In this document: piece by piece, positions 33,245 through 57,848 of the stretch
Layout: every line of letters begins with the position of its first letter
How positions within the stretch are numbered: position 1 is the stretch's first letter
Assembly: GCF_008973715.1 (NCBI RefSeq)
Contig: NZ_WBOL01000006.1
Location: forward strand, 62,001-126,000
Reading direction: 5' to 3'
Source of the DNA: Nitrincola schmidtii
Lineage (GTDB): Bacteria > Pseudomonadota > Gammaproteobacteria > Pseudomonadales > Balneatricaceae
DNA: 64,000 nucleotides
Program-made: the position numbers and the translations under genes
The notes under the pieces: model-generated
Databases searched by the model: none
What the model was told of the DNA's origin: nothing
What the model saw: the letters and a program-made list of their open reading frames with translations, nothing else

Positions 33245-34054
33245 TTAATCTGACAAGACCTCTAATGCGCGACCATCTTCAATGCGAATTCGCCACTGAT
33301 GGTGCTGTGAATTGTCTTTAATAATCCACCCCCTAACGCGAACCTGCCTTCCCTCTAACTGCTCAATATTCTGATTAAAGCGTTGCAATGATTTTCTAGG
33401 TATTTGAATCGCAACACCCCCTTCTAGATTTAACCAAATATTCGCTTGGCTTTGACCTATACGAACAACACGCCCTTTGACAATGACCGCACCACGCACT
33501 GAATTGGGAACCGCGGTTGAGGCAATACCGGGTTCATACTCGGACAAACTCCAGATACCGATGCCTTGCTGCCTCGCCTTCTGCTCATCAATAGATAAAC
33601 AATCTGAATAACGAAGATTAGGCGCAATAAATACCTGCATGACCAAACCCTGCTCTAGCAACCAACCTTGTACTGAGCGACCGTCCTCAAAGAAAAGATC
33701 CGCCAACAGACGATCATATCGATCCTTAGGATCTTCTCCTGGCTGCACCCAAACACGATGATTGTGTGATTCAAGTTTTTGTTCTAATGCACGTTTTCCT
33801 TCACGAGAAAAAGGTTCATCGGCCTGGCCTCGACGTCCCAGTTCAGGAGCGTCGACACCAATTAATCTAATTCGCTCACCGGTCGATAACTCCAGTGTAT
33901 CTGCATCAATAACTCGCTTAATTGACGCAAGGTTAGCAGAGCTTTCTTTGGTACACGTATCCGCATACACCGCGCTACACAAAACCAAGAAAAACAGTAT
34001 TTTTAAAACATAAGAAAAAACTAAATTATTGATGAAAATCAATTTTCTAAACAC
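33245..34054 (-). CDS. Secreted thermonuclease-like (SNase) protein
   Basis: A 269-residue protein with a hydrophobic N-terminal segment (about 10-31, ending SAVYA) that looks like a signal peptide. The staphylococcal nuclease domain (about 40-170) shows VIDADTLELSTGERIRLIGVDAPE, with the catalytic arginine and the aspartates that bind calcium, and later YDRLLADLFF. A C-terminal extension (about 185-265) resembles an OB-like fold with KGRVVRIGQSQANIWLNLEGG. The start is GTG at 34054 and is uncertain. A standalone gene facing the SQR operon. Confidence 0.88.
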   Translation of the reverse strand: MFRKLIFINNLVFSYVLKILFFLVLCSAVYADTCTKESSANLASIKRVIDADTLELSTGERIRLIGVDAPELGRRGQADEPFSREGKRALEQKLESHNHRVWVQPGEDPKDRYDRLLADLFFEDGRSVQGWLLEQGLVMQVFIAPNLRYSDCLSIDEQKARQQGIGIWSLSEYEPGIASTAVPNSVRGAVIVKGRVVRIGQSQANIWLNLEGGVAIQIPRKSLQRFNQNIEQLEGRQVRVRGWIIKDNSQHHQWRIRIEDGRALEVLSD

Positions 34055-52899: not shown

Positions 52900-54606
52900 A
52901 TGATTTTAACGCTGTTATTTGTTGCAGCCATGCTGATGATCAGCATTCTGCTTAGCCCACTGTCTAACCGCATCGGACTTCCTGTACTGTTGCTGTTTCT
53001 GGGTGTGGGCATGCTGGCTGGGCAAAATGGTTTTGGGCATTTACTGCCTGCCGATACCGAAACCACCTTTATGGTAGGGCATTTAGCTCTAGCCATTATT
53101 TTGCTGGATGGTGGTATGCGCACACGCGCTGAAACCTTCCGAGTTGGACTTAAACCGGCTTTAACCTTAGCGACGCTTGGCGTTGTCATTACGGCAGGCA
53201 TCACTGGCCTCGCTGCAGTATGGATCCTTGATCTACCCCTTATCTACGGCCTACTGATCGGCACTATCATTTCATCCACTGATGCAGCTGCCGTCTTCGC
53301 GCTACTGCAAAATCGTGGTTTAAGACTCAATCAACGTGTCAGTGCCACCCTCGAAATTGAGTCCGGCAGTAACGATCCCATGGCGATTTTCTTAACCATT
53401 GTCTTGCTGGAACTGATCGTTCAACAAACGCCCCCTAATGCACTGGATGCCGCGTGGCTGCTATTCAAACAACTCACCTTAGGTGGGTTGGGTGGTGTAC
53501 TCGGTGGATTTTTAACCGCATGGCTGCTGAAACGTTTTGTACTCATTGATGCTTTTTACCCCTTACTGGTGACGGCTGCAGGGTTAACCATGTTTTCTGC
53601 TGTGACCTTGTTGGATGGCAGCGGCTTTTTAGCCATCTATTTGATGGGCGTTATTTTGGGCAATCGCCAAGTACGTCGCATGGAAGATATTCTTCAAGTT
53701 CATGATGGCCTGGCTTGGCTGGCACAGCTCTGCTTGTTCTTGATGCTTGGATTACTGTTAGCACCCAATGAAAAGCTGGATCATATCTATGAAGGCATCT
53801 TACTGGGGGCTGTATTAATTTTAGTGGCACGCCCTATTGCCGTAGCGCTGACCTTATGGCCCTTCGGTTTTCGCTTTAAAGAGCAATTATTTATTTCTTG
53901 GGTAGGTTTACGCGGTGCCGTTCCTATTGTATTGGCACTCTTTCCATTAATGGCAAACATTGACAATGCACACCTCTTCCCAACGATTGCCTTTATTGTG
54001 GTGATCATGTCATTGGTAGTTCAGGGCTCTACTTTAGCGTCATCCGCTCGTTGGCTAAAACTGGAGCTTCCAGCAAAGCCCAAAGCGATGCAACATATGC
54101 CATTAGAGTGGAGTGAACATGGGCATCATCAACTGATGATTTTTGAACTTGATGGTGAGCACTGGACACCTGCACGTTCATTGAGGCGTATCCGCCTACC
54201 TGAACACATTGTGATTTGTGCAGCCCTTCGTGATGAAAAACTACTGCCGTGGGACATGGATCTTGAACTGCAAGGCGGAGATAGACTGGCCATTATTGGC
54301 CCTGCTGAAACTGAAGCCGCCCTAGCGCGATTATTTAGCTCCACAGATTCAATACCGGCACTGCGCGAAAATGTTTTCTTTGGTTTGTTTGAGCTAGATG
54401 CCGCCATCGCACTGAAAGACTTACAGGCTAGTTTTGGTGTCACCATTCCAGACAACTCTGCTGATCAAAGCATCGCGGATTTTATCAGCAAAGCGCTACC
54501 CAACGCACCCGTGGTTGGCGATCGCGTGAAAATGGGACCGGTGACATTGGTTGTTAAAGCGATGCAAGGTGATCAAATCGTTAGAGTGGGTTTGAAAATT
54601 TCTTAA
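52900..54606 (+). CDS. K+/H+ (or Na+/H+) antiporter, NhaP2/CvrA type
   Basis: A 568-residue CPA1-type antiporter. About twelve membrane spans cover residues 1-400, with SSTDAAAVFALL holding the proton-binding aspartate region and GSNDPMAIFLT after it. The cytoplasmic C terminus contains a TrkA-C-like domain with DLELQGGDRLAIIG (about 460-475) and a further regulatory part. Family members extrude K+ or Na+ in exchange for H+. Stands alone, divergent from the thiolase gene. Confidence 0.92.
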   Translation: MILTLLFVAAMLMISILLSPLSNRIGLPVLLLFLGVGMLAGQNGFGHLLPADTETTFMVGHLALAIILLDGGMRTRAETFRVGLKPALTLATLGVVITAGITGLAAVWILDLPLIYGLLIGTIISSTDAAAVFALLQNRGLRLNQRVSATLEIESGSNDPMAIFLTIVLLELIVQQTPPNALDAAWLLFKQLTLGGLGGVLGGFLTAWLLKRFVLIDAFYPLLVTAAGLTMFSAVTLLDGSGFLAIYLMGVILGNRQVRRMEDILQVHDGLAWLAQLCLFLMLGLLLAPNEKLDHIYEGILLGAVLILVARPIAVALTLWPFGFRFKEQLFISWVGLRGAVPIVLALFPLMANIDNAHLFPTIAFIVVIMSLVVQGSTLASSARWLKLELPAKPKAMQHMPLEWSEHGHHQLMIFELDGEHWTPARSLRRIRLPEHIVICAALRDEKLLPWDMDLELQGGDRLAIIGPAETEAALARLFSSTDSIPALRENVFFGLFELDAAIALKDLQASFGVTIPDNSADQSIADFISKALPNAPVVGDRVKMGPVTLVVKAMQGDQIVRVGLKIS

Positions 54607-54628
54607 TCACGGGCAGAGAACATTGTAC

Positions 54629-54709
54629 GAAATATCTAACGCTAGTCCGTCTTATAAAAGCCAGTTGGAAACATAATGCAATAAAAGACTTCGATAGACC
54701 ACTCAAACA
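54629..54709 (+). pseudogene. Decayed copy of the sixA 5' end
   Basis: This 81-base stretch matches the first 81 bases from the third base of sixA (56350-56430) at 69 positions with no gaps. Its reading frame is still open, but the GTG start has become ACG and the catalytic RHA triplet reads RLI, so it cannot work. It ends in unrelated sequence at about 54710. With the intact sixA it flanks the Cache-GGDEF gene in direct orientation. Confidence 0.85.
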
Positions 54710-54780
54710 AATGCTCTGACTAAGCTATGCTTAATAGAGTATGTGAATCTCATTAATGAATTATTGTTAGGCTCTGTTTA

Positions 54781-56241
54781 ATGAAAGATCGCCTGTTCCA
54801 TTTGCTAAGCTTGGTGGTATTTCTGGCATTCGTCGTAATGACCAGCTTTTATGCTTGGCAAGACAGTCGCAGAATTAAACATTTTGTTCAACATTACGAA
54901 TTACCCTCAATAGGTATGGCTTTAGCGGCAAGTCTTGATAGAACGGCTGGCGAATATCTCCGAATTAGTGATGAACTCCTACGTGATGATTTTATTCGTA
55001 ACTGGATTCTAGCTGGCGAAGAGGACATTGACTCGTTACGTCAATTCTTAGGTGACATTAGCCTGCGATTTCGTTTGGCGGATGCCAGCATGGTCAGTGA
55101 CCGATCAGAGACTTACTACTCAAATGATCGGCGAGTTGTAAAGCTTGACCCCAATAATGTTTCCAGAGATGGTTGGTATTATCTTTATCGCGACACTCTG
55201 CGAGCTACCAATATTGATACATGGTATTACGCTCAAGAAGACAAGTTACACATTTGGGTCAACGCACCTCTTTTTGATGATAACGGTGAATTTCTGGGTT
55301 TAGCCGGAGTAGGAGTCGATACCGAAGATTTCAGTAACATGCTTTTAGCTTATAACCGTCTTGAAGGCTTTAATGTGTTTTTGGCTCGTGTAGATGGTCA
55401 ACTGGTCTATGCTAAAGATCGGCAACTATTGGCAGAGCAACGCAGTTTCAATGATCTATGGAATATAGAATTCAACTCTCTTCCAAAAAATCAAAATATC
55501 TCTGGTGATACTATCGCTAATAAGGACGATCAAGGTGCGATGCTCTGGGTGCGTTTTATGGAACCTTGGAACACTTGGCTAGTGGTGGAGAAAACTGCTG
55601 AGTCCGTTCAGTCTCGAGTCAATGACAGCTTTAAAAGCAGTGCAATGCTCAGCGGATCTCTGGGGATGTTCCTGTTTCTAGTGATATTTACTTCTATTAC
55701 CCTTGCGCGTCGCCAAGTAGATAAGAATACTCTTCAACTTGAATATCAAGCAGGTACTGATTCACTGACAGGTTTATTTAATCGCTTACACTTCTCTCGA
55801 TTTATTGAACAAGAGCTGATTAGATTACGTCAGGTAAAAGGCACTTCTGCAATCTTGCTAATTGACATTGACAATTTCAAAAAAGTTAACGATTCATACG
55901 GACATCCGATCGGGGATGAGGTGCTTAGATACGTTGCGCTAACTCTAAAACAAAACACTCGAGAAGGAGATATCGCTTCTCGATTTGGTGGAGAAGAGTT
56001 CATGATTCTGCTGTCTGGTGCGTCATTAAAAACTGCCACACAACGAGCTGAACAGCTTCGTGTTGCAGTCAGCGAACTTGCTTTACCTTGTCTTCCAAAC
56101 GAAGTTAGAGTGACCATTAGCATTGGCGTTTCGCTATTAGATATCTCCAAAGATAATCCAATTGATACCGCTTATCGCGAAGCGGATAAAGCATTATATG
56201 CTGCTAAATCTGCAGGTCGTAATCGAGTGGTATGCTCATAA
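54781..56241 (+). CDS. Diguanylate cyclase with periplasmic Cache sensor
   Basis: A 486-residue membrane cyclase. Spans at about 7-25 and 285-310 enclose a periplasmic Cache-like domain (about 30-280, with DGWYYLYRDTLR). The GGDEF domain (about 330-485) has SRFGGEEF intact and REGD as the RxxD product-inhibition site. It makes c-di-GMP in response to an unknown small molecule. It lies between a sixA remnant and intact sixA, so it was probably inserted here after the sixA locus formed. Confidence 0.93.
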   Translation: MKDRLFHLLSLVVFLAFVVMTSFYAWQDSRRIKHFVQHYELPSIGMALAASLDRTAGEYLRISDELLRDDFIRNWILAGEEDIDSLRQFLGDISLRFRLADASMVSDRSETYYSNDRRVVKLDPNNVSRDGWYYLYRDTLRATNIDTWYYAQEDKLHIWVNAPLFDDNGEFLGLAGVGVDTEDFSNMLLAYNRLEGFNVFLARVDGQLVYAKDRQLLAEQRSFNDLWNIEFNSLPKNQNISGDTIANKDDQGAMLWVRFMEPWNTWLVVEKTAESVQSRVNDSFKSSAMLSGSLGMFLFLVIFTSITLARRQVDKNTLQLEYQAGTDSLTGLFNRLHFSRFIEQELIRLRQVKGTSAILLIDIDNFKKVNDSYGHPIGDEVLRYVALTLKQNTREGDIASRFGGEEFMILLSGASLKTATQRAEQLRVAVSELALPCLPNEVRVTISIGVSLLDISKDNPIDTAYREADKALYAAKSAGRNRVVCS

Positions 56242-56347
56242 ACGCTCATATTTAACTGTTTTTTTCACTATGGAAAGGATGGCAATCCTCTTAAGTTAGC
56301 AGGTTTGAACCTTTCCTTATTTTCCTAATTAAAAGGTAAAAATTGCT

Positions 56348-56881
56348 GTGAAATATCTAACCCTAGTTCGTCATGCAAAATCCAGTTGGAAACATGATGG
56401 ATTAAAAGACTTCGATAGACCACTGAATAAACGTGGTAAGCAAGACCTGCCCTTGCTCTGCGAGCGACTGATTCAGTATCAACTTTTTCCTGACCAACTG
56501 ATTTATAGCCCCGCTACCCGAACGCGCTTAACCGCAGCAAGAATTATCGAGCGTTTAGCCATCCCTTTACCGAACTGCCAAGATCGAGAAGAGATTTATG
56601 AATCCAGCGCCGAAACACTATTGCAAGTCATTCAGCAAGTAACCGATCAGACAAACCATCTCATGCTGGTTGGGCACAACCCAGGATTACAAGATTTAGG
56701 TAATTATTTACTAGAGAACAGATCCTCTGTGCCACATTTCCCAACCAGTGCCGTACTTCATTTAGGCTTGAATATAGAGAAATGGAGTGACCTGCATCGA
56801 GGTTGTGCTCACTGTATTCGACTGGATTATCCAAAGCTGCATTCACAACACCCTTTCAATGACACTCACCCAGATGACTGA
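56348..56881 (+). CDS. sixA: Phosphohistidine phosphatase SixA
   Basis: A 177-residue phosphoglycerate-mutase-type phosphatase. The catalytic H9 is in LVRHAKSSWK, and the second histidine is in LVGHNPGLQ (about 107). SixA removes phosphate from histidines in phosphotransfer domains and, in E. coli, in the nitrogen-PTS. It starts with GTG at 56348 and is 11 bases upstream of the AEC transporter gene. A broken copy of its 5' end lies at 54629-54709. Confidence 0.92.
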   Translation: MKYLTLVRHAKSSWKHDGLKDFDRPLNKRGKQDLPLLCERLIQYQLFPDQLIYSPATRTRLTAARIIERLAIPLPNCQDREEIYESSAETLLQVIQQVTDQTNHLMLVGHNPGLQDLGNYLLENRSSVPHFPTSAVLHLGLNIEKWSDLHRGCAHCIRLDYPKLHSQHPFNDTHPDD

Positions 56882-56891
56882 GAACTAACCT

Positions 56892-57848
56892 GTGGAACTC
56901 TATTTAGAAGCCTTAGGCTTTACCGCCAGTATTGTTATACCCATTTTCTTTATTGTTTTTTTAGGCTACCTGCTTAGACGCCTAAACGTCATTGATGCGG
57001 GATTTGTCAGTGTCAGCTCGAAATTAGTCTTCACTGTCACGTTACCTGCATTGGTCTTTATGTCGATAGCGCAGATGGATTTTCATGCGGTATTTAACCC
57101 AGGACAGCTGACCTATGTGGTGATCGGTACCTTGGCGACCTATGTGGTGATTTGGTTTTTAGCCGCACGATGGATCAAAGATCCAGCGGACCTAGGTGCG
57201 TTTATTCAAGGAAGCTTCCGCAGTAATTACGGCATTATTGGCCTAGCGGTTAGCTTTAACCTCTTCGGACAATCTGGCTTAGCTCAAGCATCATTGCTCT
57301 TAGCCCTAATCATCCCTATGTATAACGTACTGGCTATATTATGTTTGACGCTACCCTTTCGAAAAAGTCAGTCTGTCAGTGTATTTTCCACTCTCATTGA
57401 AGTGGTTAAGAATCCGTTGATTTTAGCGGTGGTGTTTGCCTTACCCATATCCTACTTCGGCGTTAAACTGCCAGATGTTATCTCCACAACAGGTCGCTAC
57501 TTTGCCAATCTAACCCTTCCATTAGCACTCTTAGCGATTGGAGGTACCTTAAACATGAAGAGCTTGCGTGATAGCTCGACGCAAGCCTTTTGGGCGACCA
57601 GCACTAAATTAGTTTTCTTACCCATCTTTTTAACACTGGGGGCTTGGATAGCTGGATTTAGAGGGCAGGATTTAACCGTGATGATGATCTTATTCGCTTG
57701 CCCTACTGCAGCAGCAAGCTTTGTGATGGCGAAAGCCATGGGTGCTAATGCCGAACTGACTGCCAATATTATCTTAACCACAACTTTAGGTTCAGTGGTT
57801 ACGATTAGTTTAGCGATCTATTCTGCAACGCTACTCGGATGGGTGTGA
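56892..57848 (+). CDS. AEC-family transporter
   Basis: A 318-residue integral membrane protein with about ten spans. VIPIFFIVFLGYLLRRLNVID at the start and GGTLNMKSLRDSS and LFACPTAAASFVMAKAMGAN near the end match the auxin efflux carrier-like (AEC) family. Bacterial members move malonate, malate or other organic anions; the substrate here is unknown. Starts with GTG; likely transcribed with sixA. Confidence 0.88.
   Translation: MELYLEALGFTASIVIPIFFIVFLGYLLRRLNVIDAGFVSVSSKLVFTVTLPALVFMSIAQMDFHAVFNPGQLTYVVIGTLATYVVIWFLAARWIKDPADLGAFIQGSFRSNYGIIGLAVSFNLFGQSGLAQASLLLALIIPMYNVLAILCLTLPFRKSQSVSVFSTLIEVVKNPLILAVVFALPISYFGVKLPDVISTTGRYFANLTLPLALLAIGGTLNMKSLRDSSTQAFWATSTKLVFLPIFLTLGAWIAGFRGQDLTVMMILFACPTAAASFVMAKAMGANAELTANIILTTTLGSVVTISLAIYSATLLGWV

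Follow-up and report, generated by a model that had tools for sequence, protein, structure and literature searches.

A diguanylate cyclase gene between nhaP2 and sixA, apparently inserted with a long duplication of its target on both sides

In the 64,000-nucleotide stretch of Nitrincola schmidtii DNA analysed here (hereafter the window), an intact gene encoding a membrane diguanylate cyclase stands between an antiporter gene, nhaP2, and a sixA-like phosphatase gene, and worn copies of the old boundary between these two neighbours can be recognised on both of its sides. The reading that we favour, to which we assign a probability of roughly two in three, is that the cyclase was inserted with a two-sided duplication of its target, after which single arms of the repeat were refreshed and a block of the locus was exchanged with a related lineage. 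The locus, compared throughout with that of the only other genome found to carry the cyclase (the MAG DLM2.Bin78, referred to as G009), contains the following features:

52900–54606, + strand: nhaP2-type K+/H+ antiporter gene (NCBIfam potassium/proton antiporter, 636 bits, cut-off 309)
ending at 54606, + strand: 3' end of nhaP2, forming the left boundary of the duplicated junction
54607–54628, + strand: left intergenic piece past the nhaP2 stop, from the old nhaP2–sixA spacer
54629–54709, + strand: decayed outer sixA 5' end, which forms the left repeat arm (69/81 identical to 56350–56430)
54710–54780, + strand: left end of the insert, common to the window and G009 and alignable between both
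54781–56241, + strand: inserted membrane dCache-GGDEF diguanylate cyclase gene, 486 amino acids, intact reading frame
56270–56347, + strand: worn trace of the nhaP2 3' end with the old spacer, the right arm before sixA (from the shuffle test against G009)
56348–56881, + strand: intact sixA-like phosphohistidine phosphatase gene, GTG start, 177 amino acids (Pfam His_Phos_1)
from 56348, + strand: first ~80 nt of intact sixA, the remainder of the right arm
56892–57848, + strand: AEC-family transporter gene, the right neighbour (Pfam Mem_trans)

The left arm of the repeat is readily visible in the window itself. Exactly as the original prediction had described, the 81 bases at 54629–54709 agree with the sixA start (56350–56430) at 69 positions, free of gaps and in the same orientation, and a repeat search returned a direct repeat spanning 78 nt at 87% identity, with its core at 54629–54706. 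The likeness also held up against shuffled sequence: local alignment of the outer and inner sixA ends gave a score of 116, which none of 2000 dinucleotide shuffles reached (maximum 36), and the next-best ungapped match to the sixA start within the 64 kb window is 40/81. As had likewise been noted, the outer copy lacks both the start codon and the catalytic histidine, with ACG where sixA has its GTG start and leucine in place of histidine (KYLTLVRLIKASW, against KYLTLVRHAKSSW in sixA). The shuffle test detected no significant likeness in this arm past approximately codon 31 of sixA. The adjoining segment (54710–54780) does not resemble sixA (462/2000 and 1004/2000 shuffles were as good), occurs as a single copy in the genome, and probably carries the cyclase's own promoter; scans for promoters and terminators found nothing above shuffled sequence.

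The duplication extends to the other neighbour. In G009, the sequence between the cyclase stop and the sixA start includes GATCACATTGTTCGAGTGGGTTTAAAAATTTCCTGATT, which copies the nhaP2 3' end and aligns to that genome's own nhaP2 tail over 47 columns with a score of 67 (0/2000 shuffles, maximum 43). The equivalent stretch of the window (56270–56347) scores 49 against the nhaP2 tail and spacer of G009 (0/2000 shuffles, maximum 45), whereas 87/2000 shuffles do as well against its own nhaP2 tail, so that it is recognisable only with G009. This right-flank remnant, easy to see in G009 but all but lost in the window, had been overlooked in the original prediction, whose proposal of a duplicative event is supported but whose account of its extent was incomplete, since the nhaP2 end was duplicated too. 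Left of the cyclase, G009 also has the homologous sixA copy in a much more worn state (score 46 against the window sixA, 0/2000 shuffles; score 33 against its own sixA, 13/2000 shuffles), and the second cyclase carrier thus shares this upstream remnant instead of showing unrelated sequence. Taken together, these alignments indicate that the cyclase lies between two direct copies of the old nhaP2–sixA junction (nhaP2 tail, spacer, sixA head), each ~150–170 nt long, with borders that are approximate because both copies have decayed. This arrangement accounts for the survival of nhaP2 and sixA, as each retained the copy to which it was attached.

Comparison with relatives identifies the uninterrupted site. 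Among 11 genomes of the genus, the window genome included, the cyclase is present in two, and in the same place; one of these two carriers, G009, is a fragmented MAG in which three contigs had to be joined through exact 55-nt overlaps to yield the order nhaP2–cyclase–sixA–AEC. Three genomes (G001, G010 and G005) have empty sites in which nhaP2 is directly followed by sixA and AEC, with a spacer of 31–32 nt between the last nhaP2 codon and the sixA start in G001 and G010, and the AEC gene follows sixA in most family members in which sixA was found. Since these three junctions are empty and both cyclase carriers group on the AEC tree (support 92/94), the cyclase is an insertion, and a single gain within the genus is the simplest explanation, which bears out the earlier proposal that it had entered at sixA. 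The insertion is older than the split between the window and G009 species. The two cyclases are 89% identical at the amino acid level, and this is the only close homologue of the window protein, the sensor half being 21–31% identical to distant relatives in other genera of the order. A search of 392 genomes of the order with the sensor half gave nothing above 31% except the window itself (G009 was not among the sample's hits), so that no donor was found; the cyclase was not found in viral contigs, and plasmids gave matches at 23–27% only.

From these comparisons, the locus fits the class of 'insertion with long target duplication' (Nobusato et al. 2000, Gene 259:99, cited through PMC1643837 and PMC3031569), and would be a well-documented case of it. 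Most of its cases, as PMC1643837 and PMC3031569 describe them, concern restriction-modification genes in Helicobacter pylori. The target is uninterrupted in G001, G010 and G005, direct copies of it lie on both sides of the insert (each at 0/2000 shuffles in one or both genomes), and the insert has no transposase, recombinase or terminal inverted repeats; a search of its ends for such repeats found none, there is no other reading frame on the coding strand of the insert, and no second copy was found in the 3.14 Mb genome. A classical transposon or IS insertion was considered and rejected, as the short target duplication, terminal inverted repeats and transposase that characterise it are not seen here. 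The H. pylori inserts, as described there, are alike in having a gene between long direct target copies, empty relatives and no transposase; their cargo is restriction-modification, whereas here it is a signalling enzyme in another bacterial group, and the copies at this locus are old and diverged, with one arm apparently refreshed. The novelty is therefore modest, as the class itself is known, and lies in the kind of cargo and the apparent renewal of the repeats. With this locus, a gene other than a restriction gene joins a class of transposon-free gene movement that is poorly explained and whose long target duplications shield the genes on either side.

The substitutions in the outer sixA end speak to its origin. 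Its differences from the inner end are distributed 4/3/3 over the three codon positions (n=10 substitutions), as expected of the decay after duplication that the original prediction had suggested, in which changes are blind to codon position. Between functional sixA orthologues and the window sixA, third positions account for 51/83 differences (~61%), and at that rate three or fewer third-position differences in 10 would occur with P = 0.045. Moreover, of the 15 sites that distinguish the window sixA from that of G009, 13 carry the window base in the outer end and none the G009 base, and this end is nearer to the window sixA (87% identity) than the G009 sixA is (81%). From the codon pattern and the 13/15 window-type bases, the likeliest source of the outer end is the window's own sixA lineage rather than a foreign allele, with the copy decaying free of constraint.

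This copy appears to be younger than the insertion that created it. G009 shares the insert together with its left border, yet the visible copy looks younger than the divergence of the two sixA genes, and we therefore consider that gene conversion between the repeats probably renewed the outer sixA end. The outer copy and sixA of G009, in comparison, are 58% identical, against 87% in the window. The nhaP2-tail remnant of G009 is likewise fresh, its aligned core differing from that genome's own nhaP2 at 3 bases, all of them third positions (probability by chance 0.04). The suggestion that divergence between the sixA copies would date the arrival of the cyclase consequently does not stand, as the visible copy looks younger than the species split. 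The age of the insertion is here separated from that of its visible scar, and decay of flanking repeats is an unsafe clock if the repeats convert.

Synonymous divergence between the window and G009 changes abruptly along the locus. The proportion of synonymous differences (pS) is 0.35 in the cyclase and 0.29–0.33 in sixA, compared with 0.51–0.72 in other neighbours of comparable nonsynonymous divergence (pN 0.035–0.13), and within the AEC gene it is 0.31 over codons 1–40 and 0.51–0.82 afterwards. As the low values run through the cyclase, sixA and 40 AEC codons and then stop, the cyclase–sixA block was probably exchanged once, at a later time, between the two lineages; a selective cause of the low synonymous change is less likely.

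In the favoured history, the cyclase together with its own upstream region (~1.5 kb) would have been inserted at the nhaP2–sixA junction of the common ancestor of the window genome and DLM2.Bin78, duplicating a target composed of ~45 nt of the nhaP2 end, ~30 nt of spacer and ~80–95 nt of the sixA start. nhaP2 and sixA would have stayed intact, each with its attached copy, while the detached copies (the sixA head on the left and the nhaP2 tail on the right) would have been free to decay. Later recombination could then have refreshed one detached arm per lineage, the sixA head in the window and the nhaP2 tail in G009, and the cyclase–sixA block would have been swapped between the lineages. The duplication itself might have arisen from a filled-in staggered break or from the integration of a circle carrying the junction sequence. 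More speculatively, the repeats could act as a standing recombination substrate, refreshed by gene conversion, that lets the cargo move between related strains as a transposase-free cassette, through which it may be excised as a circle or exchanged as a block; were this correct, which we regard as doubtful, an accessory signalling gene would rely for its spread on homologous recombination at the scars that it had left.

Other histories would produce part of this arrangement. The original prediction had envisaged, as one example of a duplicative event, recombination of a donor fragment with a sixA end of its own; in such a model the outer end would be the recipient's original and the inner one the donor's, which came with the cyclase. 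The lower synonymous divergence from G009 of the cyclase–sixA block, relative to nhaP2 and most of AEC, would agree with such an event, but the donor route predicts an orthologue-like bias towards third positions that the outer end does not show, conflicts with its complement of window-type bases and with its being closer to the inner sixA than the G009 gene is, and leaves the right-hand nhaP2 remnant unexplained, and we consider it unlikely. An equally unlikely alternative is a tandem duplication of nhaP2–sixA followed by replacement of the 3' end of the first sixA and most of the second nhaP2 by the cyclase. This would yield the same order of remnants, and sixA tends to undergo internal deletion within the genus (as seen in G008, described below); set against this, it demands two events and a replacement of ~2 kb through an intermediate that is not known, and neither sixA nor nhaP2 remnants are found past ~95 and ~45 nt, respectively.

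Two further explanations seem very improbable to us. That the cyclase travelled on a transposon, an integron cassette or a tyrosine-integrase element whose recombinase was later lost would suit a lone gene at a variable spot, where G004 has two other genes; this route is opposed by the lack of a recombinase reading frame and of terminal inverted repeats, by a repeat far longer than the usual transposon target duplication, and by the G004 insert, which has no long duplication. A single two-sided insertion with no gene conversion at all, in which the outer sixA end of the window simply decayed slowly, is the simplest history for the window alone and is similarly hard to sustain: the insert is common to both genomes, yet their outer copies differ so widely in identity to sixA, and that of the window has not one of the 15 diagnostic bases of G009 type.

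With respect to the encoded proteins, the cyclase matches Pfam GGDEF (155 bits, 1.3e-45) and TIGR00254, and scores 31 bits for dCache_1, under the cut-off of 45; no named orthologue family in NCBIfam was matched at its cut-off. Like other dCache-GGDEF diguanylate cyclases, it combines a membrane sensor with a GGDEF domain, and it has both a GGEEF active site (residues 403–407), in agreement with the GG(D/E)EF motif of the family, and the RxxD motif of the inhibitory site. Its family membership thus predicts that it is most likely an active, product-inhibited diguanylate cyclase, which would make c-di-GMP. The best NCBIfam match of the sixA product is TIGR00249 (sixA) at 35.7 bits, below the equivalog cut-off of 74.5, which places it as a SixA-like family member; it shares with SixA the RHAKSSW start that includes the catalytic histidine, and a genome-wide peptide-pattern scan confirmed no further relatives. 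In Escherichia coli, SixA dephosphorylates NPr (PtsO), leading to unphosphorylated PtsN, an inhibitor of the NhaP2-type antiporter YcgO (PMC11808508). nhaP2 and sixA are direct neighbours in the genus, an order that joins both ends of the SixA–NPr–PtsN–YcgO pathway, and the cyclase now stands between these two ends.

The surroundings of the junction vary further among the sampled genomes. In G004, nhaP2 and sixA are separated by two unrelated genes, by eye a probable lipoprotein and an EamA-like transporter, which marks the junction as a variable spot; a long duplication around this insert was looked for and is absent. The AEC gene is also present in G003 and G007, whose nhaP2 homologues are all distant (48%) and which lack a close sixA. 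In G008, which is without the cyclase, nhaP2 is followed by a sixA stub, its first ~48 nt fused to the last codons, and then by AEC; the stub reflects an internal deletion, so that at least one member of the genus seems able to do without sixA. In G006, sixA is preceded not by nhaP2 but by sequence that looks like the end of a TnpB gene of the IS200/IS605 type. Finally, across positions 33245–63750 of the window, synonymous divergence from G009 is very uneven (pS 0.25 to 0.72) and partly tracks gene conservation, and recombination between the two lineages may add to this unevenness.
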